Source of the DNA: Agrocybe praecox | Lineage: Eukaryota > Basidiomycota > Agaricomycetes > Agaricales > Agrocybaceae | DNA: 64,000 nucleotides | NCBI GenBank assembly: GCA_964017145.1 | Contig: OZ024846.1 | Coordinates: 3,410,001 to 3,474,000 of the forward strand | Reading direction: 5' to 3' | Part shown: positions 37,114 to 55,461 of the stretch, in pieces | Layout of the letters: every line of letters starts with the position of its first letter | How positions within the stretch are numbered: position 1 is the first letter of the stretch | The notes under the pieces: generated by a model | The model's input: the letters and a program-made list of their open reading frames with translations, nothing else | Databases searched by the model: none | Told to the model about the DNA's origin: nothing | Made by a program: the position numbers and the translations under genes

Positions 37114-40100
37114 CTAACTATCCCCCACAAGTCGCTCGTCACTATCGTCTTCAACATCCTCTCGGGCATCGTGCCACGCTTCGTTGACTCCGTCATCGTC
37201 TGGATCTCCTCTCAGTTCGCTCGCTTCCTCGTCTCTGGAAGCACTTCTCTCAATGTTCCCTCTAGCCGGTACTTGATCGTCACCTTCCTCTCGTTGGCGC
37301 CACTCCTCTTCGATCGTTTGTTGCGTGGCTTCAAGTTCCGTGCCAACCCTTGGAATAAACAGCCGCAGGCGTCGAGAGCTGAAGTTCCCGCCGATTGGTA
37401 AACCCTCTAACGATTGGAGTTTGTACGAATTCTGGTTGCGGCTGATGACACGGCGTGGGGCCGAAAACTTTGGTACGAGTTTTCTATCATTCTTGAAGGT
37501 GTAATCAAGATCGCTCCTGTAAACCTGCACCAGATCTCCTGCTTTGAAAATGACTTCCCGAGGTGGGCTTGCGAGGACCTTTTTGTCAAATGCCACTTTA
37601 CGACGATGGCTGTGATCCACTATCTGCGAGTACCCATCAAATCGCTGCTGGTTCACATAGGCTAGCTGAACCTCTACCTCTTCTGGTGTAGGTTCGGATG
37701 AAATGTTGGTGATTGGTGTAGGTTTTGTGTTGATAACGAGGCCCAGGATCAATTCGTTGGGTGAGTATTTCAAGTTTGGTAGGATTCGATTATTGATATA
37801 TCTTATTGCAGCTTCTAGATGGTCTGGCCAATTTTCGGGAACATCCATTGCATCGTATTCGTCCTCGCCAAGGTCCGGAGCACACATACGCTTCAACCGA
37901 TCTAGGAGTATCTTGTTCATGCCTTCGAGCAGACCGTTGACCCATGGTGAGTAAGCAGGACATATTTGGAGCTTTGTTCCCCTTTTCTCACATTCTTCTC
38001 GAAGTTCTTTGTTATCAAATTCGGGACCGCCGTCAACCATGAGTGTTTCTGAAGGTGTGAACATGTCGCATATATCACCGTAACTCTTCTTTGATGACTT
38101 GCCTGTGGCTGCAGACTTAAGCTTGGTTGCCCACAGACGTTGCGAATACACATCCATCCATAGCGAAAGTTTGCCGAAGCCACCTTTTCCTTTGGGCATT
38201 GATAAAGTGTCGGCAACCATGAGTTCGAATGGGTGTCGTCTGGTAATTGGTTCTAGGAGAGAATGAAGGTGCGTTGAGCCGAAACTCTTGCATTTCCCAC
38301 AATTCATAATTGCTTCTGTGATAGACTTGTCAAGGCGTGGGCTGGTAATTGTGTCTAGAAGTTTTGTTTTGATGTTATCGCGATGGAAGTGGCCATTGTT
38401 GCGATGGATTTCGTAGGCCAGGGCTCTCGTCTCTTCTTGCGTCACACATTCTATCCTTGGTCTTGCCCTTACTGATTCATCTCCCACCTTCCACAGTCGT
38501 CCTCCCTCTATCATATACCCCTCTGCCTTGTGCTTTGCTCTCTTCCTTATCCGCAAGCTCTGTCCGTGGTCCAACTCCAATAGAGAATCAATGATCTCCA
38601 AAAATACTTTCTCGTTGGCGAAGCGAGTTCGCAATGCGGAGTAGATTGACTCAGCGTGTGTTGTATCAATCTGGAAGACGTCGTTAGCTAACCGCATACG
38701 TGCTTCCCAGTCTTCGCTGACAGTCCACTCGTGTCCGTCACCGTCTTCATGAGGTAGGTTGACAAATTTCCGGCTGAGACCGTCCGCAACTAAATTGAGT
38801 TTGCCAGGTCGATGCCTCACGTCCACGATGTTGAACGCCAGTACTGCGTCACGCCATCGTGCGTGTGTTGAATTTAACGTTGAGCTGAGGAGGTGGTCTC
38901 GAAGAGCTTGACAGTCTGTTTCGAGCTCGATAGGGTAACCCCATATAATGTCACCGAATTTATCGAGTGTGTGTTTTAGCGCAGCAAATTCTAAAATAAA
39001 TGGTTTGTACTTCTCTTCCGTTACAGATGTCCGCTTTGAGATAAAGGCAATAGGGTGCATTGTTGACTTTTCGGAACCGTTGGGCAGGATCGATGTGAAT
39101 TTTTGTGTCAGCATACCTGCGAATCCGAATTTGCAACCATCAGTAGTCACGACGAAGGGGGTGCCATCGAACTTTGGTCCTTTGAGAACGGGTTCGCTGG
39201 TAAGTGCTACTTTCAAACGAAGGAATGCCTTATCATGCTCCGCATTCCAGAGGCCGACCAATGAATGACCTTTCATGGCACGATTATATGCAGCTTTACC
39301 CTTCAACTTTGGGAGTTCGATGTTTCGGACGAGATCTGTCAGGGGTTGTGCCATCGTAGCATAACCTTTTACGAGAGACCTGAAGTATCCTGCTAGGCCG
39401 ATGAAAGAACCCAAGTTCTGTAAGTCTGTTGGTGTTTTCCAGTCGACAATTGCGGTTAATTTTGTTAAGTCAGGTTTTATTCCATCAGGTCCAATACGAG
39501 CACCAGCGAATGTAGCTTCAGTCATGAAAAATCTTGATTTAGATGCTGAAAGTGATAGTCCTGTTTCTCGTGTTCGTTGGAGCAAGCGACGTGTGTTGGA
39601 GAGGAATTCATCGAATTTATCGCCTGCCATGCCACCATCATCTACGAATAGTTCGATCAGGGTGCCAACAAGGTCGCCTAGAGCCCTCGCTGTCATCTCC
39701 GAAAAGGTTGATGGGGCACCTGTTAAACCAAACGGCATCCGTTTATATGAGAAGTATCCCCGTCCTTCGACGTAGAAGCATATGTATGGTCTGTCTTCGG
39801 GCCTGATTTCGCATGCGTAAAATCCATTTGCAAAATCGAAAACTGTGACCCAACGATGACCACTCAAGGCTTGCTGTTTTGGGCGGATATCTCCCTGTGG
39901 CATCGGAGGGACCTGTGTGACTTTATTCAATTCTGCAAAATCTTGGCATACACGCCATTTTGTTTGCGCCTCCGGGGCGAGCTGATCTGCAGCGGTTTCT
40001 TCTCTAGGTGGCAGCTCTTCAAATGCTGCAGGTAAACCAGCGGTGATGCATTGGTCATTTACGCGATGCTTCAGAGAGTCGATGGTAAGGCCTTCTCCGT

Positions 40101-41436
40101 CGTGCGCTTTTTTTGCTAATGTAGTTGCACCACAGCATTTTACGTCCTGGTGTGCGATTGGAGTGATGATGTCTGCAGCGAGCATTTTATCGATGACACC
40201 ATTGAAGAATTCTCGCTGCGGTGGGCTTTGTGGGCGTTGGTTGACTTTGGTTCGAAATACTGTGTCTCTTGGTATGTCTAGACGGTGTGCTGCACCTTCT
40301 ACTGGTGTAACTTCGCTCATGGACAGTGCAAAACAATCTGCATATTCAGCTATGAGATTCTGCACTACCTGTTTCTGTTCCTGTGAGAGGTCGTCCCCGA
40401 TCGTTACCTCTCCAAGGATTGTTGCCACACGGGCTGCGTTATGTGGATCTGTTTTACGAGTTAGCAATGTGGGTTCGAATGACTTTGATACATCTGGCTG
40501 TGCAAAGCCAGGATGATCTGGGCTGTTTCCTGCCACTTTATCTAGGATCCAGGTATCCCGCCATTGAGTGTCTTTGTCTGACACGGAGTCTGACGAACCT
40601 GTGGTGGTAACACTGGGTGGAATTTGGTCAGTTATGTGCTCATCTGCGGTCTCGTAAATAACGGGTAAGACTTCCCTCAAGGGGGATCGCAAATCCCCCA
40701 AGAAGTTTGTGCGCTGTTTAATGTCGATTGCGAGATTTGCGAGGAGATGACTCGCCAATCCAGATGTCTTCGAAAACTGATTTTGCAGATTGACGGGTAT
40801 GTGTCCGTCATGCGGAATTGAGACTGTGTCATTTCCGTAATCGTGTACCGCTTTCATGGTTTCGAGGAGTGGCTTTCCAACAAGAACTGCCCAAGCCTTG
40901 TTGCTCCCAAAGACTTCGAATCCGCCTTCGAATGTCATGTTTTTCACTGTGACTTTTCCATGCCATATTCCTCGAGATGGGACGAGACGACCATCTGCCA
41001 TTCGCAGCATCATTTTGGATGGTTCTAATGCTGAAAGCCGGCCTTTTGATAGGTCGAACATTGTCTCGTCGATTGCATTGACCATGGCGCCATCGTCGAA
41101 AACAGCACGGAACCTGACATTCTCTCCCCTCGGCCCTGTTAATGCCATATCATGGACAAACGGTACGCTCTCCCTCTTCATCCCATTCTCCTCTCTTAGG
41201 CTGCCAACGGTGTATAGGTCTGAAACAAAATTTTGTTTATTATCTGACACAAAATACATGGTATGCGTATCCGGGACAACCTCATCAACTACAGGTGCAT
41301 TTCCCTTCCCCTTTTCGGGGTGACACAGTCTGTTGGCAGGCCTGTCGTTGTTCCCAAGCAGCGGCACAGCCTGCTTGGGAATCTTCGCACATCTCTGCTT
41401 TTGTTCCTGGGTCGTCGACGAAGCTTGATACTTCAC
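37114..41436 (-). CDS. pol: Pol polyprotein of the Ty3-type element
   Basis: About 1440 residues counted from the end of gag, uninterrupted. Protease-like region: FRAVFDDGAMVNAID with the active-site Asp, and WAVLVGKPLL. Reverse transcriptase: WRVCQDFAELNKVT, GHRWVTVFDFANGFY, FSYKRMPFGLTGAPSTF, and the catalytic LFVDDGG, an FVDD form of YxDD. RNase H: PFVVTTDGCKFGFAGML, HPIAFISKR, LELETDCQAL-like segment. Integrase: zinc-binding HRNNGHFHRDN and CGKCKSF, then the DDE set in MVADTLS, MVDGGPEFDN and NGLLEGMNKIL. The C-terminus (DLVQVYRSDLDYTFK...) resembles the integrase tail; no chromodomain is recognised. Its frame stays open upstream into gag, and it lacks a good ATG at the 5' end, so expression as a Gag-Pol fusion by -1 frameshifting at 41454-41460 is expected. 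Confidence 0.95.
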   Translation of the reverse strand: MKYQASSTTQEQKQRCAKIPKQAVPLLGNNDRPANRLCHPEKGKGNAPVVDEVVPDTHTMYFVSDNKQNFVSDLYTVGSLREENGMKRESVPFVHDMALTGPRGENVRFRAVFDDGAMVNAIDETMFDLSKGRLSALEPSKMMLRMADGRLVPSRGIWHGKVTVKNMTFEGGFEVFGSNKAWAVLVGKPLLETMKAVHDYGNDTVSIPHDGHIPVNLQNQFSKTSGLASHLLANLAIDIKQRTNFLGDLRSPLREVLPVIYETADEHITDQIPPSVTTTGSSDSVSDKDTQWRDTWILDKVAGNSPDHPGFAQPDVSKSFEPTLLTRKTDPHNAARVATILGEVTIGDDLSQEQKQVVQNLIAEYADCFALSMSEVTPVEGAAHRLDIPRDTVFRTKVNQRPQSPPQREFFNGVIDKMLAADIITPIAHQDVKCCGATTLAKKAHDGEGLTIDSLKHRVNDQCITAGLPAAFEELPPREETAADQLAPEAQTKWRVCQDFAELNKVTQVPPMPQGDIRPKQQALSGHRWVTVFDFANGFYACEIRPEDRPYICFYVEGRGYFSYKRMPFGLTGAPSTFSEMTARALGDLVGTLIELFVDDGGMAGDKFDEFLSNTRRLLQRTRETGLSLSASKSRFFMTEATFAGARIGPDGIKPDLTKLTAIVDWKTPTDLQNLGSFIGLAGYFRSLVKGYATMAQPLTDLVRNIELPKLKGKAAYNRAMKGHSLVGLWNAEHDKAFLRLKVALTSEPVLKGPKFDGTPFVVTTDGCKFGFAGMLTQKFTSILPNGSEKSTMHPIAFISKRTSVTEEKYKPFILEFAALKHTLDKFGDIIWGYPIELETDCQALRDHLLSSTLNSTHARWRDAVLAFNIVDVRHRPGKLNLVADGLSRKFVNLPHEDGDGHEWTVSEDWEARMRLANDVFQIDTTHAESIYSALRTRFANEKVFLEIIDSLLELDHGQSLRIRKRAKHKAEGYMIEGGRLWKVGDESVRARPRIECVTQEETRALAYEIHRNNGHFHRDNIKTKLLDTITSPRLDKSITEAIMNCGKCKSFGSTHLHSLLEPITRRHPFELMVADTLSMPKGKGGFGKLSLWMDVYSQRLWATKLKSAATGKSSKKSYGDICDMFTPSETLMVDGGPEFDNKELREECEKRGTKLQICPAYSPWVNGLLEGMNKILLDRLKRMCAPDLGEDEYDAMDVPENWPDHLEAAIRYINNRILPNLKYSPNELILGLVINTKPTPITNISSEPTPEEVEVQLAYVNQQRFDGYSQIVDHSHRRKVAFDKKVLASPPREVIFKAGDLVQVYRSDLDYTFKNDRKLVPKFSAPRRVISRNQNSYKLQSLEGLPIGGNFSSRRLRLFIPRVGTELEATQQTIEEEWRQREEGDDQVPARGNIERSASRDEEASELRGDPDDDGVNEAWHDAREDVEDDSDERLVGDS

Positions 41437-43040
41437 GTCGACGACCCTTCTCCATTTCCCTGGTTGATTAAATTGTGAAGGTGGTTGAGCTCGTCTGGAT
41501 CGTATGTTTGCACAGTGGTGTCCTCAACGTCAACCACATTAACGTTGACGATGGCTGCTGCTGCGTGTTCAGCTCGGCGGCGAATGGTTTGTGCGATGGA
41601 TCGCCATTTGTGCTCGAGAGCTGGAACCCGGGGTTTGGTGCACGGCAAGCGCAAATGGGACTGGTATCCACAGGTCCAGCACTCTCCAGATGCAACTGGG
41701 GCTGTGCCTGGAGTGAGAGGGTATGGCCGTACTTCACTAGGTCCGCTTTGCCCATGAGTGGCATGCCATTCTGTGATCTGCACGTTATACTTTGCGTTGC
41801 CGTCGGCTGTGTTGGGTTGCATGGGTAATGCTTTTCGCAGGACATCGGCGAGACGTTCGTGGGGTGGTCTTTCTGTGAAGCTGCTGGGAGTGGTGCTGCG
41901 TGAGCGCTGTGGCTGGTAGGTAGTGTTGGTAGGAATATATTGACGTTGGCTGGGTTTGAAGTTGATGTTTTGGAAGGCGGCCCCGAGGGCCTTACTCGGT
42001 GTGTCAGGGGTTAATGCAGGCATGAACCTTCGAGTCCGTTCATGTTCCTCTTCTACTTGATCCATTAGCTCTTCGAGTGTGATTGCTCTGACATTGTTGC
42101 AAAGTTCGGTCCAGGTCATGGGCTTGAGGCCAATAAGTTTGATGATCGCCTTTGGCAGGTTCTTCCGCACACCCGGAACGAGCAGATTTCCTGTGTCGGG
42201 AATGTCATTTGCGAGTCTTTCCACCTTGTCGGCCCACACAATGTGCGTCAATTCCTCCTCTCCTCCTTTACTAGCTGCTACTCGTTGTCCAAGGTCCAAG
42301 GGTTTCAGGAGTACGGCATCGAGGAGTACCTGTTTCTCTGCTGTGGTTTTTGCAATAATAGGTTTAGCAGGCCATCGAACAGAGAAGGCAGTTTGAACAG
42401 TGGTGAATGTTGCTGTATCGGCTGCAGTTAAGGTGGACCACCACTCATCTGCCGGTGACTTTGCTTTGAGGGATAGCCGAAGGAAGCGAACCTTGTCAGC
42501 TTCGGGCATTGACGTTTTCAGCATGATGATCTTTTCCAGGCGATTCATAAAGTCTTGCGGATCTTGATCATCTGGCTTTCCTGTGAATGATATGTTGGAT
42601 AGATCAGCCATGTCAACGTCAAAATTATCGTGATGCGGAATGGGCCGTGGAATTAATGACTGTGAGATCGGCGGTTGCGGAAAGGATAATGGTCCCAGAG
42701 GTAACAATGGTGAGGCGCTATTACTAAAGACTGCTGGAGACCAAGTATAAGGTGTGTCAGACGGTGAAGAAGTTAATGTGGATTCTGAGGTATCTGACAA
42801 CGTTGTTGGGCTGCGGGTGCCAGATGAACTGGCCGTTATTTCGGGAATATAGCGGTTGCTGCCGTCTCTTTCCAGATCTGTAATAGGCCTGCGTGGTGCA
42901 AGACGTGACCAGGATGAATTAATCTGAAATGTGAAAACAGTGGGGAACAGTCTTTCGACACAGAGTGTGTTCAGTGGGGAAAAGTCGCAATTTCTGGTGG
43001 GTTCAGGTGCAGTCGCTCGTTTATCAGTGATTCGGAACAT
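41433..43040 (-). CDS. gag: Gag protein of the Ty3-type element
   Basis: 535-residue capsid/nucleocapsid precursor that forms the virus-like particle. The N-terminal third is Ser/Pro/Thr-rich. The capsid-like core runs from about residue 150 (ISFTGKPDDQDPQDFMNRLE, then ADEWWSTL and a helical region). Near residue 450 a single zinc knuckle CWTCGYQSHLRLPC fits C-x2-C-x4-H-x4-C. The stop TGA (41435-41433) overlaps the first GTG of the pol count. It starts at ATG 43040, 55 bp inside the 5' LTR. Confidence 0.92.
   Translation of the reverse strand: MFRITDKRATAPEPTRNCDFSPLNTLCVERLFPTVFTFQINSSWSRLAPRRPITDLERDGSNRYIPEITASSSGTRSPTTLSDTSESTLTSSPSDTPYTWSPAVFSNSASPLLPLGPLSFPQPPISQSLIPRPIPHHDNFDVDMADLSNISFTGKPDDQDPQDFMNRLEKIIMLKTSMPEADKVRFLRLSLKAKSPADEWWSTLTAADTATFTTVQTAFSVRWPAKPIIAKTTAEKQVLLDAVLLKPLDLGQRVAASKGGEEELTHIVWADKVERLANDIPDTGNLLVPGVRKNLPKAIIKLIGLKPMTWTELCNNVRAITLEELMDQVEEEHERTRRFMPALTPDTPSKALGAAFQNINFKPSQRQYIPTNTTYQPQRSRSTTPSSFTERPPHERLADVLRKALPMQPNTADGNAKYNVQITEWHATHGQSGPSEVRPYPLTPGTAPVASGECWTCGYQSHLRLPCTKPRVPALEHKWRSIAQTIRRRAEHAAAAIVNVNVVDVEDTTVQTYDPDELNHLHNLINQGNGEGSST
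41454..41460 (-). promoter_or_regulatory. -1 ribosomal frameshift heptamer GGGAAAT
   Basis: Minus strand reads G GGA AAT in the gag frame, a textbook X XXY YYZ slippery site, seven codons before the gag stop. Slipping back one base continues into the open pol frame. Stimulatory RNA structure was not assessed. Confidence 0.75.
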
Positions 43041-43079
43041 CGTAATCGATGGAATTAAAATGAAAGAAGCTCAGAATCG

Positions 43080-47214: not shown

Positions 47215-49553
47215 ATGAATCAAACTTCCATGATATCCGGTCCAAGTGTTATAACTGGTGGTTATTTCATGCAACATTTTACCAGTTACGAACGTAAATG
47301 TGAGTTGACACTATCACCGGCGTTTGAATGTTCAGTACACCAACTCATCTACTTTCAGCTCCGCTCGATTTGTTGACGGAGAATGTTGCACACACTGCAT
47401 TCCACAATTCTGCTGCCCGATTTGACCCGCCAAAATGTCATCAGAACACGAGAGTCGCTGTGCTCAAGAAAATTATGGATTGGATGCACCGTATGGACTG
47501 GGAAACTTGGTACCGCTATATCGTGTGGCTTACGGGGGCTGCCGGTGCGGGAAAGTCCGCCGTCGCACAAAGTATCATCGAACTCTGCCTCCCTGGAGGC
47601 CTCGTCATTGCCAGCTTCTTTTTCTTTCGCACCGATGGATTGAGAAATCACGGAAAACTCTTTGTTGCGACACTGGCATACCAGATATTTTTTTCCGTCC
47701 CAGAGACACAAGTGGGAATTCTTTCAGCCATTGACAACGACCCCCTCATCTTTACAAGAAGTCTTGGATATCAATTCGACAAATTAATCATACAACCACT
47801 GCGCATATTTTACAAACCACTGGATACCTTGGATGAAAAATGGCGTCGTCTCATTATGATCGATGGATTAGACGAATGTCTCGACCATAATATCCAAAGG
47901 GAAATATTGATGATGCTCCGAGATGCAATACGAACATACGAACTTCCCGTCATATTTCTTGTTTCCAGTCGCCCAGAGCATACTATCCAAATGGCGTTCA
48001 ACTCTCAGAAAATGGAGGGCTGTTTTACAAAACTTGTTCTCGACCATCAATACAAGCCGGACAATGATATTCGAGTTTTTCTCGAGGACAGGTTAGAAGA
48101 CATCAAGAAGGATCACCCATTTAAACATCAACTCCCTTCGAACTGGCCGATCCCAGGATCACTTCAGTCTTTGATCAAAAAATCCTCTGGACAATTCATC
48201 TATGCCGCTACTGTAATCCGATACGTCGAGTCAATTAACCATCGACCAGACCATCGCCTCGAAAACGTGATCAGCCTCAGAAGCAATCACGAAGACTTGC
48301 CATTTGCTGAGCTGGACGCCCTTTACAGTGCCATCTTTTTATCCGTGGAAAGGATAGACATTGTTCAGTCTGTGCTAGCAATATGGATGGATGAAAAGCA
48401 AAGCTATGCCAGTCCACTTGATTTAAAATTCTTCGCGATATCATCCATTGAACATATTCTCTCACTGCATGGTGGAGAAATCGAAATTTTATTTCGCGAC
48501 CTTGGTTCGCTGGTCAAGATTTCTGACCATCCAATCATGCAAACAAAGGATTTTTCATTTCATCATGCATCCCTACAGGACTTTCTTTCGGACCCGATGT
48601 GGTCTGGGGTTAATTATATTGATGTTACTGCTTTATGCGCTCGGCATCTTGCAGGTTTACTCCGTTACTTACCTAAAGTGACAGGTGCGGCTTGTCTACT
48701 AGTTGGTTTTAACTTTCTTCTGATCATTTTTCTAATAGATTTTATCAGGCAATGTCTCCGCCTATTCAATTATTGGGTCAAGACTTGTCCAATATCCCCT
48801 GAGATAATTCTCGAAATGACATCTTTACCTCTTCAGGACTTCCTGAAAAGGGAGTTGTATTCTGCATCACGGACAGACTTTGTGTCACAATTTTTAACAC
48901 TTTTGAGATGTATGGTGAGCCATACCAATTTTTTGAGGATCCTTTTGTGAATATACAACCTTACTTAGGGATGTGGGGACATTCGTTTAGCTTCTTTAGA
49001 AGCTGATATCCATAGAAAGATTGGCAGTGTTTATCTATCCCAGCTGAGCTACTATCACAGCAGTGATCATCTTGCATCACTAGTTTCAATGGCCTATTGC
49101 TCAGGCACGGATCATCTTGTTCCAAAGATCAAACATGCTATGGCTCCAAATAACAGTCAAGCGCTATTCTATGCAAATAGCATCTTCGATTGGCACCCCG
49201 ACTCAATCCTCAGTGACAACTTGAATCTTTCCATGGCATACTACACAGATTATGGCATAGCCACTGAGTCCATCAACAATTTTGTTAGGTTTCTCCGTGA
49301 TCCAACCCAATCAGCATATGATCCTTCTATCTTCGACACGTATTCCAGGACAGTGTCACAGTGCCTTTTGGAAGTTGAAAAGTGGATGTACCTATGGGAT
49401 AAGCTCGACAATGGTACTAATGTTGAAAATCAAATAATTACTCAAATGTCTCTCCAGGGTGAAATATGGACGTTGACAATTCCACATGGCAATATGCTCT
49501 TTCATGATCAGTATGGCTGTCTGTTTGCTGAAAATAAAAAAGTATATAGTTGA
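47215..49553 (+). CDS. NACHT-domain STAND NTPase, copy C, truncated by element FB1
   Basis: Paralogue of copies A, B and D. Exons: 47215-47299, 47359-48684, 48739-48914, 48969 onward; phases agree. The N-terminal exon has MISGPSVITGGYFMQH. Exon 2 carries FDPPKCHQNTRVAVLKKIMDW, Walker A GAAGAGKSAVAQ, Walker B MIDGLDEC, RPEHTI and SSGQFIYAATVI. The C-terminal region starts KRELYSAS and GCGDIRLASLEADI. Codon 710 (Gln, 49509-49511) is the last native one. From 49512 the frame enters a foldback element and gains 13 foreign residues (YGCLFAENKKVYS) before the stop at 49553. The lost part, from RFFLLLGYLIYFLP on, lies at 50702-50890. The nucleotide switch is intact, so a shortened protein could still be made; whether it signals is unknown. 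Confidence 0.85.
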
Positions 49554-49678
49554 GCCATATAATTAGTATGTTGTACATATATCTCAATAAATATATACAT
49601 TACCTTTATTATCCAATATACTTGTCAGAATATCTAACATACTTGTCGGATTGTCCAACATATGTGTCAGATTGTCCA

Positions 49679-49736
49679 ACACATGTCAGGGCAACACTAA
49701 GATCAGTGTGACAAGGCCATCAACAAAGACAAAGCA

Positions 49737-49776
<40 letters not shown>

Positions 49777-50160
49777 AGAGAGAGAGAGACACTCAATGGT
49801 TCTAAGAGATCACACCAATGATAGCGGATATCCTAAGAGATTGAAGCTGGGGCTACAGCTACATACATGTCCAGTATATATACCTTACAGCTATTCTAGA
49901 ATATTCCTACATGACATCATAGAAAGGAATGATGAGTAAAGCAATGACATCATAAAGAAAGTAAAAGAATGATGTAGAATGGATGGGGCTATGCTCATGG
50001 GAAATTAAAGTGATAAGTATCTAATCAAATGATAATCAAGAGATAATCAAGAGATAATCAAAGATATGAAGCAGATAAGATATCTACACATCTACAAAAG
50101 GGAAAAATGCGAAATAAATGTAGAAAAATAAGGAAAAATAGGGGAAACCCTGACAACACA
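49679..50160. mobile_element. Small TIR element nested in FB1
   Basis: 472 bp (49684-50155) with termini TGTCAGGG and CCCTGACA, flanked by ACACA at 49679-49683 and 50156-50160. Removing it and one ACACA restores a 21-bp repeat unit, ATTGTCCA ACACA CAACTCAG, which confirms the 5-bp duplication. No coding capacity; it contains a GA microsatellite. Probably a MITE of unknown superfamily. Confidence 0.85.
49745..49773. repeat. GA microsatellite
   Basis: About 14 uninterrupted AG units, then a further short GA run to 49790, inside the nested element. Confidence 0.9.
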
Positions 50161-50701
50161 CAACTCAGATTATCCAACATATGTGTTGTATTATCCATTA
50201 TATACATAAGATTGTCCAATGTATATGCCGTGTTATCCAACATAGTTGAGACTCGTTCTCTTACATGTAGTCGCTTAAAATGCCGGAGATGCCGGGATTT
50301 CTTGATGGCCGTTCGAATCCGTTTATAGGGGCCGAAGCCTGGCCATCAAAATATGGCTCGAAATTGGCCGGCAAGGATGGCATCAGAGCCGATCAAGAGT
50401 AAGATAATTGCCTCGAACTATGTTGGATAACCCAGCACATGTGTTGGATAATCTAACACATATGTTGGATGACCCGACAAATATGTTGGATATTCTGACA
50501 AGTATGTTGGACAACCCAACAAATATGTTGGACAATCCAACAACTATGTTAGATAATCCAACAAATATGTTGGACAATCCAACTTATGAGTTGGATATTG
50601 AAGGTAATGTATATATTTATTCAAAAATATGTACAACATACTAATTACATTGTAGAAGTATATACTTTTTTATTTTCAGCAAACGGACAGCCATAGATCA
50701 G

Positions 50702-50890
50702 CGCTTCTTTCTCCTACTCGGATACCTTATATACTTCCTTCCTCATTTCAGGGGGAGTTATACCCTCTTCCATCGTTGCCAAAGTGCATCCTTTTCTTCT
50801 GCATTTTCAAATCACTTTCCTATCCGCACAAAACTTGCTCAGGATGCTATAGAAGTGTACTTGAAACGATTTGGCCAGACCGTACCATAA
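50702..50890 (+). pseudogene. Severed 3' end of NACHT copy C
   Basis: In the frame that continued exon 4 before insertion: RFFLLLGYLIYFLPHFRG, then RCQSASFSSAF and IRTKLAQDAIEVYLKRF, stop at 50888-50890. It matches the C-terminal block of copies B and D. It is cut off from the gene by FB1 and has no start of its own. Confidence 0.9.
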
Positions 50891-51069
50891 ACAATCTATA
50901 AATGATGTACATAATACAATAAAACGACAAATATATACATCGGAGACTGGAGTTTATAATACACAATATTAATTGTGACAAGTTGCTTTCCTGAACGTAC
51001 GGCTCAATTTCGCTGAGTGGTATATACATACTTGAAATATTCAGCCAGTGCGGACAAATTTCTACATCA
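50891..51069. other. Short gap after the NACHT C remnant
   Basis: The NACHT C 3' untranslated part, then a minus-strand open stretch (ICPHWLNISSMYIPLSEIEP) that looks like a fragment of an unknown gene interrupted by the next element. Confidence 0.4.
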
Positions 51070-51820
51070 AGTTCCCTTAGTTGCCCATTCAGGGTGATGC
51101 ATCCACAGCGGAAATTACCCAACTTCCTAATTTCATGTATCAAGCCGTCTGGCTGGCCTATTGTGACCGTTTGTGACTATAATCATGTGTCTGCTGTTGA
51201 TGGCATCAAATTACAAACACATGACTTTTTGCTTGCCTCTATTTACATGTTTGGGCTCCATTGATATGTTTATATGGCCTCAAATGCAAACAAATAATAA
51301 ATAATAATGCCAGCAGGCAGGGGCATGCAGGATATAAAACAAACAAAGCCTTTGAGTGACATCACATCCAAACAACCCAATAAGGCAAGAGGACTTTGGA
51401 CTTTGAGATTTTGAGATAAAGGCCTTTCATGCATGACAGATAGGACTGAGATAAGACAGGATAAGATAAATCTATTTTTAGAACAGTCCTATTTTTAACT
51501 TTGTTCTATTTTTAGAACACAGTTCACACTTGCCAAAGAAGAACATATTTATTTTTAGAATATGTCTATTTTTAGATCTATTTACATATTTGGTAGACTA
51601 GATCAATCTATTTTTAGTTCAGATTTATTTTTAGAACACTTTAAACAAAAATAGTTTTGGTGGCTGTGTGCCAGATCACCTGCACATCACATGCATATCA
51701 CATGCTTTTCACATGACTACGCCCTTCTAGTAACTGTCGGTCACCCTGATACATGATATTAAGCAGTTGGGCCATTTCCGCTGTGGATGCATCACCTTAA
51801 ATGGGCAACTAAGGGAAACT
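51070..51820. mobile_element. TIR element of 751 bp without arm repeats
   Basis: Left end AGTTCCCTTAGTTGCCCATT, right end AATGGGCAACTAAGGGAAACT; inverted similarity continues inward about 80 bp (GATGCATCCACAGCGGAAAT and its complement). The interior repeats CTATTTTTAGA motifs. No clear target duplication and no coding capacity. It is a MITE of a family different from FB1-FB4. Confidence 0.7.
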
Positions 51821-51914
51821 CATATAGAATTCTGTCAGTACTAAGTGAAATATTTCGGATTAGACTCCGACGTCAAGAATTTTGGTGGTACTTGATGGGT
51901 GTTTCGTTGTAGCC

Positions 51915-52717
51915 GATGGTTATGGTTGTCCGTTCGCCGAAAATAAAAAACTATATACTTCTACGATGTACTTAGTATGTAGTACCGATATTTCAATAAA
52001 TTCATACATTACCTTTATTATCCAACATATAAGTCCGATTATCCAACATACATATAGGACTGTCCAACATATATATCGGGTTATTCAACACATGTGCCGG
52101 ATTATCCAACATATGTGTCAGGTTGTCCAACATATAGATTGGGTTGTCCAACATATAGATTGGGTTGTCCAACATATAATTTGGATTGTCCGATATACAT
52201 GTTGGATTATCCGACATAATTCGAGGCAATTACCTTACTCTCACTCGGCTATGATGCCGTCCTTGCCGGCCAATTTTGAGCCATTTCCTGATTGCCAGGC
52301 TTCGGCCCCTACAAACGGATCCCAACGGCCATCAAGAACTCCTGGCATCGCCGGCATTCTAAGCGACTAGATGTATGAGAATGACTCTCAACTATGTTGG
52401 ATAACACAGCATATATATTGGACAATCCAATGTGTACAATGGATAATGCAACACATTTATTGGATAATCCAAGTTGTGTGTTGGACAACCCGACACATAT
52501 GTTGGATAATCCGGTGCATATGTTGGATAATCCGGCACATGTGTTGGATAACCCGATATATATGTTGGACAATCATACATGTATGTTGGATAATCGGACT
52601 TATATGTTGGATAATAAAGGTAATGTATGAATTTATTGAAATATTGGTACTACATACTAAGTACATCGTAAAAGTATATAGTTTTTTATTTTCGGCAAAC
52701 GGACAACCATAGATGGT
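51915..52717. mobile_element. Foldback element FB2
   Basis: Element 51921-52711, flanked by GATGGT at 51915-51920 and 52712-52717. Termini TATGGTTGTCCGTTCGCCG and its near-complement. The arms are 21-bp units (TTATCCAACATATNNNNCNGA on the left; ATGTTGGATAATCCGGNNCAT on the right). The central core (about 52216-52400, containing CCTTGCCGGCCAATTT and GCTTCGGCCCCTA) is the FB1 core in reverse orientation. Same family as FB1, without the nested insert. Confidence 0.87.
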
Positions 52718-53001
52718 AAATACCCTCCTGAAACGCACCGCGCTTGTACGTCAAGCCATGAAGCTTGGAGGACTACCTGGAACGAACAAACGGCTTGGCC
52801 TAGATAGGATCAGAAGATAAAATTGTTACAGGGTTGATATGATGGTTTGCATGTAGATTTACATGCATTAAATCAAGCCTTCTTGGAGGCAATATTGAAA
52901 CTAATATGAAACCACGGAGCTCTGTCTCAGTACGTGCCTGTTATTAAAAGTACCTAATATGAGAGCACGGAGCTCTGTCTAGATAAAGTAAATAAGAACA
53001 A
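52718..53001. other. Unassigned spacer between FB2 and FB3
   Basis: Contains a short direct repeat of CACGGAGCTCTGTCT at about 52914 and 52963. No gene recognised. Confidence 0.45.
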
Positions 53002-53802
53002 GCAAACTATGGCTGTCCATCCGCCGAAAAAACATTTTCACATATATATACTATATAATCTGTATATAACATATGTATTTGAGTATTTACATATCTTACT
53101 TTGGTTATCCAACATACACATCGGAATATCCAACATATATGTCAGAATGTTTAACATATTTGTATGTTGGATATTCCAACTTCTATATTGGAGATCTCAA
53201 ATTTAATGTTGGATATCTCAACTTCAATGTTGGATATTCCAACTTCTATATTGGAGATCTCAAATTTAATGTTGGATATCTCAATTTCTATGTTGAAGAT
53301 TCCAACTTCTATATTGGATATCCCAACTTCAATGTTGGAGATCTCAAATTCAATGTTAGATTCTCAACTTCAATGTTAGATAACCCAAATTCTATATTGT
53401 AGATCTCAAATTTAATGTTGGATATCCCAACTTCAATGTTGGAGATCTCACATTCAATGTTAGATATCTCAACTTCAATGTTGGATATCCCAACTTCTAT
53501 ATTGTAGATCTCAAATTCAATGTTGGATATCCCAACTTCTATGTTGGAGATTTCAACTTCTATATTGGATGTCCCAACTTCAATGTTGGATATCTCAACT
53601 TCTGTGTTGGAGATTTCAACTCTGTATTGGATATTCTAACTTCTATGTTGTAGATTCCAACTTTTATGTTGGATAACTGACTTCATTCATTAGAATAAAG
53701 GCATATCAATGTTGGATAACTAAGGTAATATATGTAAATACTCGGATACATGTAGTATATACAGATTATATAGTATATATACACGAAAATGTTTTTTCGG
53801 CG

Positions 53803-55448
53803 GATGGACTATGAGTGTCCGTTTGTACATTTATGATTTTTTACATACATACTCAAATTTAAATATTGTCGACCATTTAAGTAAGATTGTCGACCATTTG
53901 AGAGAGATTGTCGACCACATATGACGGATTGTCGACCAAAAGATTAGATTGTCGACCATAAAATCTCATTGTCGACCATCAAAATCTTATTGTCGACCAT
54001 CAAATTGCATTGTCGACCCCAAATTTTATATTGTCGACCACCTAAGTGAATTGTCGACCACTCGCATTAACGAATTGTCGACCACTCTCGCCTAACATGA
54101 TTTTAGCATGCCATTGCAGCCGGTCTCGCCTAATGCCAATTTTGATGCGCATTTCGGCAGTCTGGCGTTGATAATAATTTAAACTCAGCCTATGCGCGTC
54201 GCGCAAGACTCAAAACTATTATTTCTTGCTTTTTATATTTTACTTCTTACCTTATGAAACAATTTTGCCACATACATACTAAATAACACGGGCTGTTTAT
54301 ACCTTAATTTACATTGTACAGACAGTTCGTGCGCCTGTCAAGTCTTGGTCAAGTCCCTACCATCAAGATTGCTGTGAGGTGAGCTGGTGTCTACATTAAT
54401 AACAGCTTCGGACATTGGAAATTATGTGAATTAAATGTGATGACGCACGTCTCAGTGACGCGGCTGTCACACGACGTTACAACTGGCTGGCTGCAGGGAC
54501 TTGACTGGCTTTCAGCTCTCAGAAGGACCTGGTGTCGGTTTTTTTTGGCGGAATATCTTTACTGAATAGTCATATACATATGTACGGAGTTTCATGTAAT
54601 ACTGGTTCATTGGCGAAGCTCTATGAGTAGATATAGCAACGAGCGGCGATGTGCGCGTTGGGCGCATATTGCATTCCCACGGTCCGTCTTCATACAGTAA
54701 GATAGCTTTCAACTCTCAGAAAGACCTGGCGTCGGTTTTTTCAGCCGGAATATCCTTATTGCATAATAATATACATATTTACGGACTCTCATGTAATACT
54801 GGTCCATTGGTGAAGCGCTATGAGTAGATATAGGAACGAGTGGCTATGTGCGCGTTGGGCGCATACCGCGTTCCCACGGTCCATCGGCGCGCAGAAAGGG
54901 ACTTGATAGGCGCACGAACTATCTGTCCTACATAAATTAGGCTAAATTTTTGTAAACATATTTTATTAGCTAGGATATACACGGCACAATTGTTTTCTAA
55001 GATAAGAAGTGAAATATAAAGAGGAATAAATAATAATTCTGAATCTCGCGCGACACGCATGAGCTGAGTTTAAATTATTAGTGACGCCGGACTGCCGAAA
55101 TGCGCATCAACATTGGCATTAGGCGAGACCGGCTGCAACGGCATGCTAAAATCGTGTTAGGCGAGAGTGATCGACAATTCGCTAATGCAAGTGGTCGACA
55201 ATTCACTTAGGTGGTCGACAATACAGAATTTGTGGTCGACAATGCAATTTGATGGTCAACAATAAGATTTTGATGGTCGACAATCTAATTTGATGGTCGA
55301 CAATCTAATCTTATGGTCGACAATCTTTTGTGATGGTCGACAATCCGTCATAAGTGGTCGACAATCTTACTTAAATGGTCGACAATAGTAGATTTTGAGT
55401 ATGTAAGTAAAAAATCATAAATGTACCAACGGACACTCATAGATGGAC
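53803..55448. mobile_element. Foldback element FB4, nested in FB3
   Basis: Element 53810-55441, flanked by GATGGAC at 53803-53809 and 55442-55448. Termini TATGAGTGTCCGTT and AACGGACACTCATA. The arms hold about ten units each side of ATTGTCGACCANNNNNNNNN (20-21 bp, GTCGAC palindrome in each). Inverted similarity then continues through 54100-54355 and 54894-55180 (for example ACAGTTCGTGCGCCT/AGGCGCACGAACT), leaving a loop of about 540 bp with a direct duplication. No transposase. Confidence 0.85.
54509..54884. repeat. Direct duplication in the FB4 loop
   Basis: 54509-54687 and 54706-54884 are diverged copies of the same 179-bp unit, each starting CTTTCARCTCTCAGAARGAC and ending CCCACGGTCC. They share GTAATACTGG and GATGTGCGCGTTGGGCGCAT-like segments. 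Confidence 0.85.
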
Positions 55449-55461
55449 AGCCATAGCAAAC

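Follow-up and report, generated by a model that had tools for sequence, protein, structure and literature searches.

The window, as the whole 64,000-nucleotide stretch of Agrocybe praecox DNA analysed here is called (C7:3410001-3474000 of a genome of 59.17 Mb in 347 contigs), contains four transposon-like elements, FB1 to FB4, between positions 49506 and 55461. Each reads as a discrete insertion with terminal inverted repeats (TIRs) and a direct target-site duplication (TSD), and in all four Tandem Repeats Finder detected arrays of period 21 (20/21 in FB4); coordinates are collected in Table 1. The original prediction, made from the sequence letters, described a nested set of foldback elements with 21-bp-periodic inverted arms. 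The insertions, their common ends, their duplications and the periodicity of their arms are all borne out, the last also by a shuffle test. FB1 to FB4 are probably (about 70%) non-autonomous members of several related families of the IS3EU type, the ends of which are modules with putative tandem transposase sites. The end anatomy itself is real and well supported.

The structural class of foldback elements, with long inverted tandem-repeat arms, describes FB1, FB2 and FB4, in which the arms surround a unique core. The arms of FB2 (298 nt) and FB4 (373 nt) are 87% complementary and those of FB1 (173 nt) 82%, and FB1 also holds a 472-bp insertion resembling a long terminal repeat (LTR). FB3 belongs to this class only in part. 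It consists of three inward units on the left, followed from 53167 by one long array of opposite sense; it is not a symmetric foldback, and neither a unique core nor the inner box described below was found in it. Nesting is confined to FB4 within FB3. Once FB4 and one copy of GATGGAC are removed, the rejoined FB3 flanks form the complement of the FB3 left terminus, with no difference in the 24 bases compared.

Copies across the genome

Genome-wide searches with end patterns, allowing up to three mismatches, returned 102 matches to the FB1/FB2/FB3 end, 25 to the FB4 end and 51 to a third end type, totals in which some places occur twice; the reversed patterns used as controls gave no match in the whole genome in any search. 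A filter requiring inverted ends and an exact direct duplication of 5-9 bp retained 30 distinct elements from the fetched stretches, the duplication being 6 bp in 27 and 7 bp in three. A genome search with the ends had been named as the test of the original prediction, and other copies with matching ends and duplications do exist. End patterns alone led to 26 of the 30; the other four are FB1, FB2 and FB4, noticed first through their arrays, and L085, retrieved on account of its transposase. One family of ~748 bp accounts for 12 of the elements, so the arms in the set are not independent. The 30 exclude end pairs rejected by the exact-TSD or TIR-identity filter (e.g. L047, L053, L058 and L049:1395-3583) and also L043/L044, which spans two loci; the pair C2:4540415-4546884 was dropped, being without a TSD and periodic on the left only. 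The array survey covers this genome alone; homologous proteins elsewhere come without DNA context.

The TIRs are of two types, TATGGYTGTCC and TATGAGTGYCC. Elements of the FB1-FB3 type end in TATGG..CCATA and those of the FB4/L085/L089 type in TATGA..TCATA. The 40-bp ends match in inverted orientation with zero differences in, for example, L009 and L040, and with few differences in others.

A Tc1-like transposase was considered as a partner for FB2 and rejected, as its open reading frame sits in a separate insertion adjoining TA within L042, and the TSD of L042 itself is 6 bp rather than the TA of Tc1/mariner elements. This Tc1/mariner-like insertion lies inside the FB2-type array of L042 (C7:202831-205176), and a 95% identical copy of it is found on C6, beside FB1-like sequence.

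Period, core and orientation of the arrays

Periodicity was scored in the 30 elements and FB3 as self-match at lags of 8-59, and each arm was compared with 20 shuffles. In all 62 arms of these 31 elements (60 of 60 in the filtered elements, two of two in FB3) the top-scoring lag was 20, 21, 41 or 42, and its score exceeded that of every shuffle. For the 26 elements identified from end patterns only, in which 52 of 52 arms are periodic, the result is not circular. The arms of L089 and that at the C5 left end were added to give the set of 65 arms used below.

According to the original prediction, unit sequences differ between element types while the period is kept. This did not hold: a related core appears once the units are read in the same strand and phase. 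The pattern ATTRTCNAMCA, with up to two mismatches, matched 581 times inward and 145 times outward in the 65 arms, where shuffles gave 60 inward matches, and inward matches outnumbered outward ones in 62 arms. Since this pattern was composed after inspecting both clades, the motif search was rerun without it. Unsupervised discovery returned GATTATCCAACA from nine representatives of the TATGG clade (160 sites; at the scan threshold, 156 inward matches and 35 outward) and nATTGTCnACCA from three of the TATGA clade (61 sites; 60 inward and 11 outward). Of the 10 positions that both motifs define, eight are the same. A unit of the C5 type, ATTATCCACCA, is one base off the TATGG core. Each unit is thus an inward-pointing core related between clades, followed by a looser linker, and the TATGG unit reads as near-palindromic when the preceding linker bases are included.

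Among 537 spacings between neighbouring cores, 450 measured 20-22 bp (393 at 21, 48 at 20 and nine at 22) and 30 measured 41-43 bp. In 40 of the 54 TATGG arms the first core lies at bp 96-99, and in the other arms of that clade it falls anywhere from bp 27 to 118; all 11 TATGA arms have it at bp 55-56. That the 21-bp units might encode a 7-residue repeat protein was considered and rejected, because FB3 and FB4 combine spacings of 20 and 21 bp.

Most arms also carry a box, TGCCG-N4-TGCCG, which reads inward and borders the array on its inner side. One form was present in 42 of 65 arms, whereas shuffles predict 0.18; another, partly looser form was found in 52 of 65, with two occurrences on both strands of the 58 kb of window outside the elements. 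FB3, L018 and L056 keep their arrays and TSDs, yet the box was not found in them, and for that reason it may be dispensable for movement.

Variation of units and arms

Cores vary less than linkers. Adjacent units share 84% identity in their cores in the TATGG clade and 94% in the TATGA clade, figures inflated by the picking of cores by pattern, as opposed to 61% and 48% in their linkers; composition alone would give 28%. Across 12 aligned copies of the 748-bp family, diversity was 0.065 in cores, 0.110 in linkers, 0.070 outside the arrays and 0.007 in the terminal 25 bp. All seven array length changes in this family are of 21, 42 or 63 bp; the three outside the arrays are of 1 bp each.

The two arms of one element are 80% identical in L039, 77% in L040 and 88% in L085, with L039, L040, L041 and the 8-kb L048 copy spanning 76-80%, and they are identical over the stretch compared in L052 and L089. 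Ongoing homogenisation of arms as a general rule was considered and is not supported: arms of the 748-bp family are 83-90% alike within a copy versus 90-100% for the best match in another copy. In L052, L089, L045, L054 and L085 the two arms are closer to each other than to any other arm compared, the last three of these elements having no close relative in the compared set.

Transposase-encoding relatives

FB1 to FB4 lack a transposase, as originally noted, but relatives elsewhere in the genome encode one of the DDE integrase type that matches the Pfam family rva_4. FB3-like ends surround rva_4 loci in L039 (6459 bp, with open frames matching the family), L040 (6616 bp) and L043/L044 (C8:118008-129963, ~12 kb with a later insertion). 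L085 (4157 bp; 7-bp duplication) combines FB4-like ends with a 361-amino-acid open frame matching rva_4 (PF24764) with an E-value of 6.7e-57. Pairs of TATGAGTGCCGG ends, 6.7-7.6 kb apart, span further rva_4 loci on C5, C9 (1894107) and C11 (271507); of these, the C5 left end was read. In total, seven of the 17 rva_4 loci above the cut-off, by our own grouping of matches, lie between two such ends, and two others have one such end within 5 kb. Arrays are present at both ends of L039, L040 and L085, which contain one rva_4 locus each, and at the C5 left end. Candidates for the autonomous partner that the original prediction proposed to look for exist for the FB3-like and FB4-like ends.

The transposase has 1106 homologous proteins, 120 of them listed, and the best named homologs among the matches listed come from Arthromyces, Mycena, Favolaschia, Pleurotus, Marasmius and others, as expected for a mushroom-forming fungus; window open frames that are NACHT-type by eye agree with this. 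Across 52 homologs, every sequence has D221, and at least 90% retain D278 and E313. An AlphaFold2 model from the 52-sequence alignment (P0010 first; mean predicted local distance difference test score 79) places helices at residues 99-135 and 146-199, followed by an RNase-H-like core. With Foldseek and VIA-align, the model matches retroviral integrases, MuA, TnsB and IstA, mostly over residues 149-400 and at low identity; these matches support a predicted integrase fold and bear on that fold rather than on mechanism. No PDB entry matched the transposase in a sequence search. When the open frames of L085 and L039 were scanned against Pfam, rva_4 and weak helix-turn-helix matches were returned, the latter in the N-terminal region of L085, and no THAP domain.

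L039 has a second open frame (L039:5241-6127) on the strand opposite the transposase, without a Pfam match and BTB-like by eye only, and similar frames occur in L040, L044 and L086. Inserted in the transposase-encoding element L043/L044 is a pair of open frames of 865 and 655 amino acids, retroelement-like by eye.

Relation to known elements

IS3EU (IS3EU/GingerRoot) elements encode a DDE integrase-type transposase and have members in fungi (PMC10045372, PMC12730594). In the accessible portions of these sources, complete families are given TA..TA termini and usually 6-bp TSDs (PMC10045372), and rust-fungus members TIRs longer than 30 bp with ends TAYGG..CCRTA (PMC12730594). FB1 to FB3 have the TA..TA termini, TAYGG-type ends and a 6-bp TSD, and TIRs of more than 30 bp are found in, for example, L009 and L040. 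The FB4 clade shares the TA..TA termini and the TSD length (6 or 7), but its ends are not of the TAYGG type. The predominant 6-bp duplication agrees with IS3EU, and the 7-bp duplication of three elements is a difference. By termini and TSDs, FB1 to FB4 fit the IS3EU type, a provisional class set from these features.

The portions of the IS3EU descriptions available mention no tandem arrays or foldback arms, both features of the elements discussed here (PMC10045372, PMC12730594). No IS3EU element with such arrays is reported in the literature searched (IS3EU, GingerRoot, foldback arms), and no description of the internal architecture of IS3EU ends was found in what was accessible of it; the satellite-DNA literature checked for IS3EU held table entries or similarity notes only. 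As a design, however, tandem-repeat foldback arms are already known from Galileo and Foldback and so are not new, going by the accessible text (PMC3688188). The ends of these elements are likewise long and inverted and contain tandem repeats, with several transposase sites (putative in the present case), and binding of the THAP-domain transposase to sites in the long repetitive ends has been shown for Galileo, of Drosophila (PMC3688188). Unlike Galileo, a THAP-domain transposon of the P type, the elements here are associated with an integrase-type rva_4 transposase and combine a unit two helical turns long with an inner box. Foldback-type arms, of uncertain use, are here linked to an integrase-type transposase within one genome.

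Multi-site transposase ends are also those of phage Mu and of TnsB from CRISPR-associated transposons (CAST). In the latter, as far as the accessible text describes them, multiple 22-bp transposase sites in the ends are contacted by two DNA-binding domains (PMC9371665). The integrase fold of this Tn7-like TnsB matches the rva_4 model, and its multi-site ends resemble the present arrays; the bacterial ShCAST has four uneven and nonsymmetric sites per end, in contrast to the 3 to ~25 evenly spaced units seen here (PMC9371665).

Function of the arrays

By analogy with Galileo (PMC3688188) and the TnsB sites of CAST (PMC9371665), so far as these are described in the text available, the best reading of the arrays would be as docking sites for the transposase. 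They are most likely cis-acting end modules that hold tandem transposase sites on one helical face, because the transposase-encoding copies that could be read carry arrays too. The original prediction had offered a transposase-binding array and a small-RNA hairpin as explanations. The former is favoured from sequence, since arrays are present in the readable transposase copies, cores vary less than linkers, inward matches are in excess in 62 of 65 arms and the pitch is about two helical turns.

Each end comprises a TIR, a spacer, 3 to ~25 inward cores related to ATTRTCNAMCA at 20-21 bp and, in most copies, the TGCCG-N4-TGCCG box. The N-terminal helix-turn-helix domains of the rva_4 transposase would bind the array, and the two-turn pitch could set its subunits on one face of the helix, an arrangement that would raise end specificity and aid pairing of the two ends. 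Transposase supplied by an intact relative would then cut at the TIRs and join at 6-bp staggers. The foldback appearance seems to be a by-product of two end modules with little in between, because the arms of the best-sampled family are homologous but are not being homogenised. FB3 and L056 contain scarcely anything beyond TIRs, spacers and array, which suggests that the arrays, rather than internal genes or the box, are the part that a copy keeps. A wider proposal, on which the odds are rather less than even, is that these elements represent a eukaryotic integrase-type lineage with long, helically phased rows of up to ~25 putative transposase sites plus an inner box, and with a multi-subunit transpososome unlike the small assemblies of known relatives. 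As unit, pitch, orientation and distance from the end are all defined, the purpose of tandem-repeat arms becomes directly testable.

Several observations weigh against transposase docking. Eight of the 17 rva_4 loci have no such end assigned, the genome end-pattern and rva_4 searches found no rva_4 copy bounded by FB1/FB2-type ends, and L048, an 8-kb copy with FB1-type ends, carries other open frames and no rva_4 match. Inward matches do not exceed outward ones in three arms (the right arms of L041 and L056 and the left arm of FB3). A matrix trained on TATGG units finds TATGA units weakly (12 inward versus 3.6 in shuffles), and as the two motifs nevertheless agree at most positions, the cores appear related yet clade-specific rather than identical. 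The binding role assigned to the arrays is itself drawn from sequence, and a near-palindromic unit could also be read by a host factor. Within the 748-bp family, core diversity is so close to that outside the arrays that constraint on the cores is unsupported, and whole-unit length changes are expected from slippage without selection as well.

The last two points agree with neutral tandem expansion of a transposon end by slippage and unequal exchange, the 21-bp period being a historical accident with no current role, and the identical arms of L052 and L089 can be read as homogenisation. This explanation survives best among the alternatives but is unlikely in view of the periodicity of every arm tested, the concentration of spacings at one and two units, the inward bias, the fixed distance of the first core and the greater likeness of adjacent cores (albeit picked by pattern) than of adjacent linkers.

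Slightly less probable again are sites for a host protein, a transcription factor or silencer, whose role would lie in expressing or repressing the transposase and not in transposition itself. Near-palindromic TATGG units would suit dimeric factors, and an inner box is common to the arms; however, arrays are kept at both ends of copies that lack a transposase, FB3 and L056 retain little else, and L039, L040 and L085 have arrays at both ends for a single rva_4 locus each. Retention of the inverted arms as a source of hairpin RNA, with a 21-bp unit of small-RNA length, is very improbable: the complementarity of the FB2 and FB4 arms and the identical arms of L052 and L089 would suit it, but FB3 lacks symmetric arms, those of L039, L040, L041 and the 8-kb L048 copy are too divergent to favour it, the pitch is 20-21 bp in one clade, and dicing requires no periodic template.

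Feature coordinates and neighbouring sequences

Table 1. Coordinates of FB1 to FB4 and their parts in the window
Feature	Position	Strand	Details
FB1	49512..50695		Non-autonomous element; TSD GATCAG at 49506-49511 and 50696-50701
FB1 left array	49608..49683	+	4 inward cores, 21-bp pitch; cut by LTR-like insertion
LTR-like insertion in FB1	49684..50155		472 bp, TGTCAGGG...CCCTGACA; flanks share ACACA
FB1 left array beyond LTR-like insertion	50169-50242		4 further cores
FB1 inner box, left	50281..50294	+	TGCCG-N4-TGCCG
FB1 inner box, right partner	50369-50382	-	TGCCA-N4-TGCCG
FB1 right array	50419..50599	-	9 inward cores, 21-bp pitch
FB2	51921..52711		TSD GATGGT at 51915-51920 and 52712-52717; member of ~748-bp family, 12 copies aligned
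FB2 left array	52017..52216	+	10 inward cores, every spacing 21 bp
FB2 inner box, left	52255..52268	+	
FB2 inner box, right	~52343-52358	-	Looser form TGCCGGCGATGCCA
FB2 right array	52395..52615	-	21-bp pitch
FB3	53008..53809 (left 802 bp); 55449-55455 (last 7 bp)		TSD GCAAAC at 53002-53007 and 55456-55461
FB3 left array	53104..53156	+	3 inward cores
FB3 long array	53167..53720	-	~25 units of 21 bp (two of 20)
FB4	53810..55441		Inside FB3 right terminus; TSD GATGGAC (7 bp) at 53803-53809 and 55442-55448
FB4 left array	53865..54084	+	11 cores, ATTGTCGACCA type, 20-21 bp (last spacing 24)
FB4 inner box, left	54109..54122	+	TGCCA-N4-AGCCG
FB4 inner box, right partner	55130-55143	-	
FB4 right array	55168..55386	-	11 cores, 20-21 bp (last spacing 24)

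The LTR-like insertion in FB1 has an apparent 5-bp duplication, and its sequence recurs at no fewer than 39 other genomic places, several of them paired 6 kb apart, with 40 of 275 candidates scored. An open frame at 48969-49553, following a gene that is NACHT-type by eye, extends into the FB1 terminus; insertion of FB1 may have altered or truncated the 3' part of that gene. The FB4 core contains a 197-bp unit repeated ~1.9 times (54508-54882). Between FB1 and FB2, at 51040-51849, lies a further inverted-repeat element with 103-nt arms that are 83% complementary and with internal CTATTTTTA direct repeats; no target duplication of this element is clear by eye. Elsewhere in the window, at 37114-43070, long open frames of 1469 and 545 amino acids resemble an LTR retrotransposon by eye.

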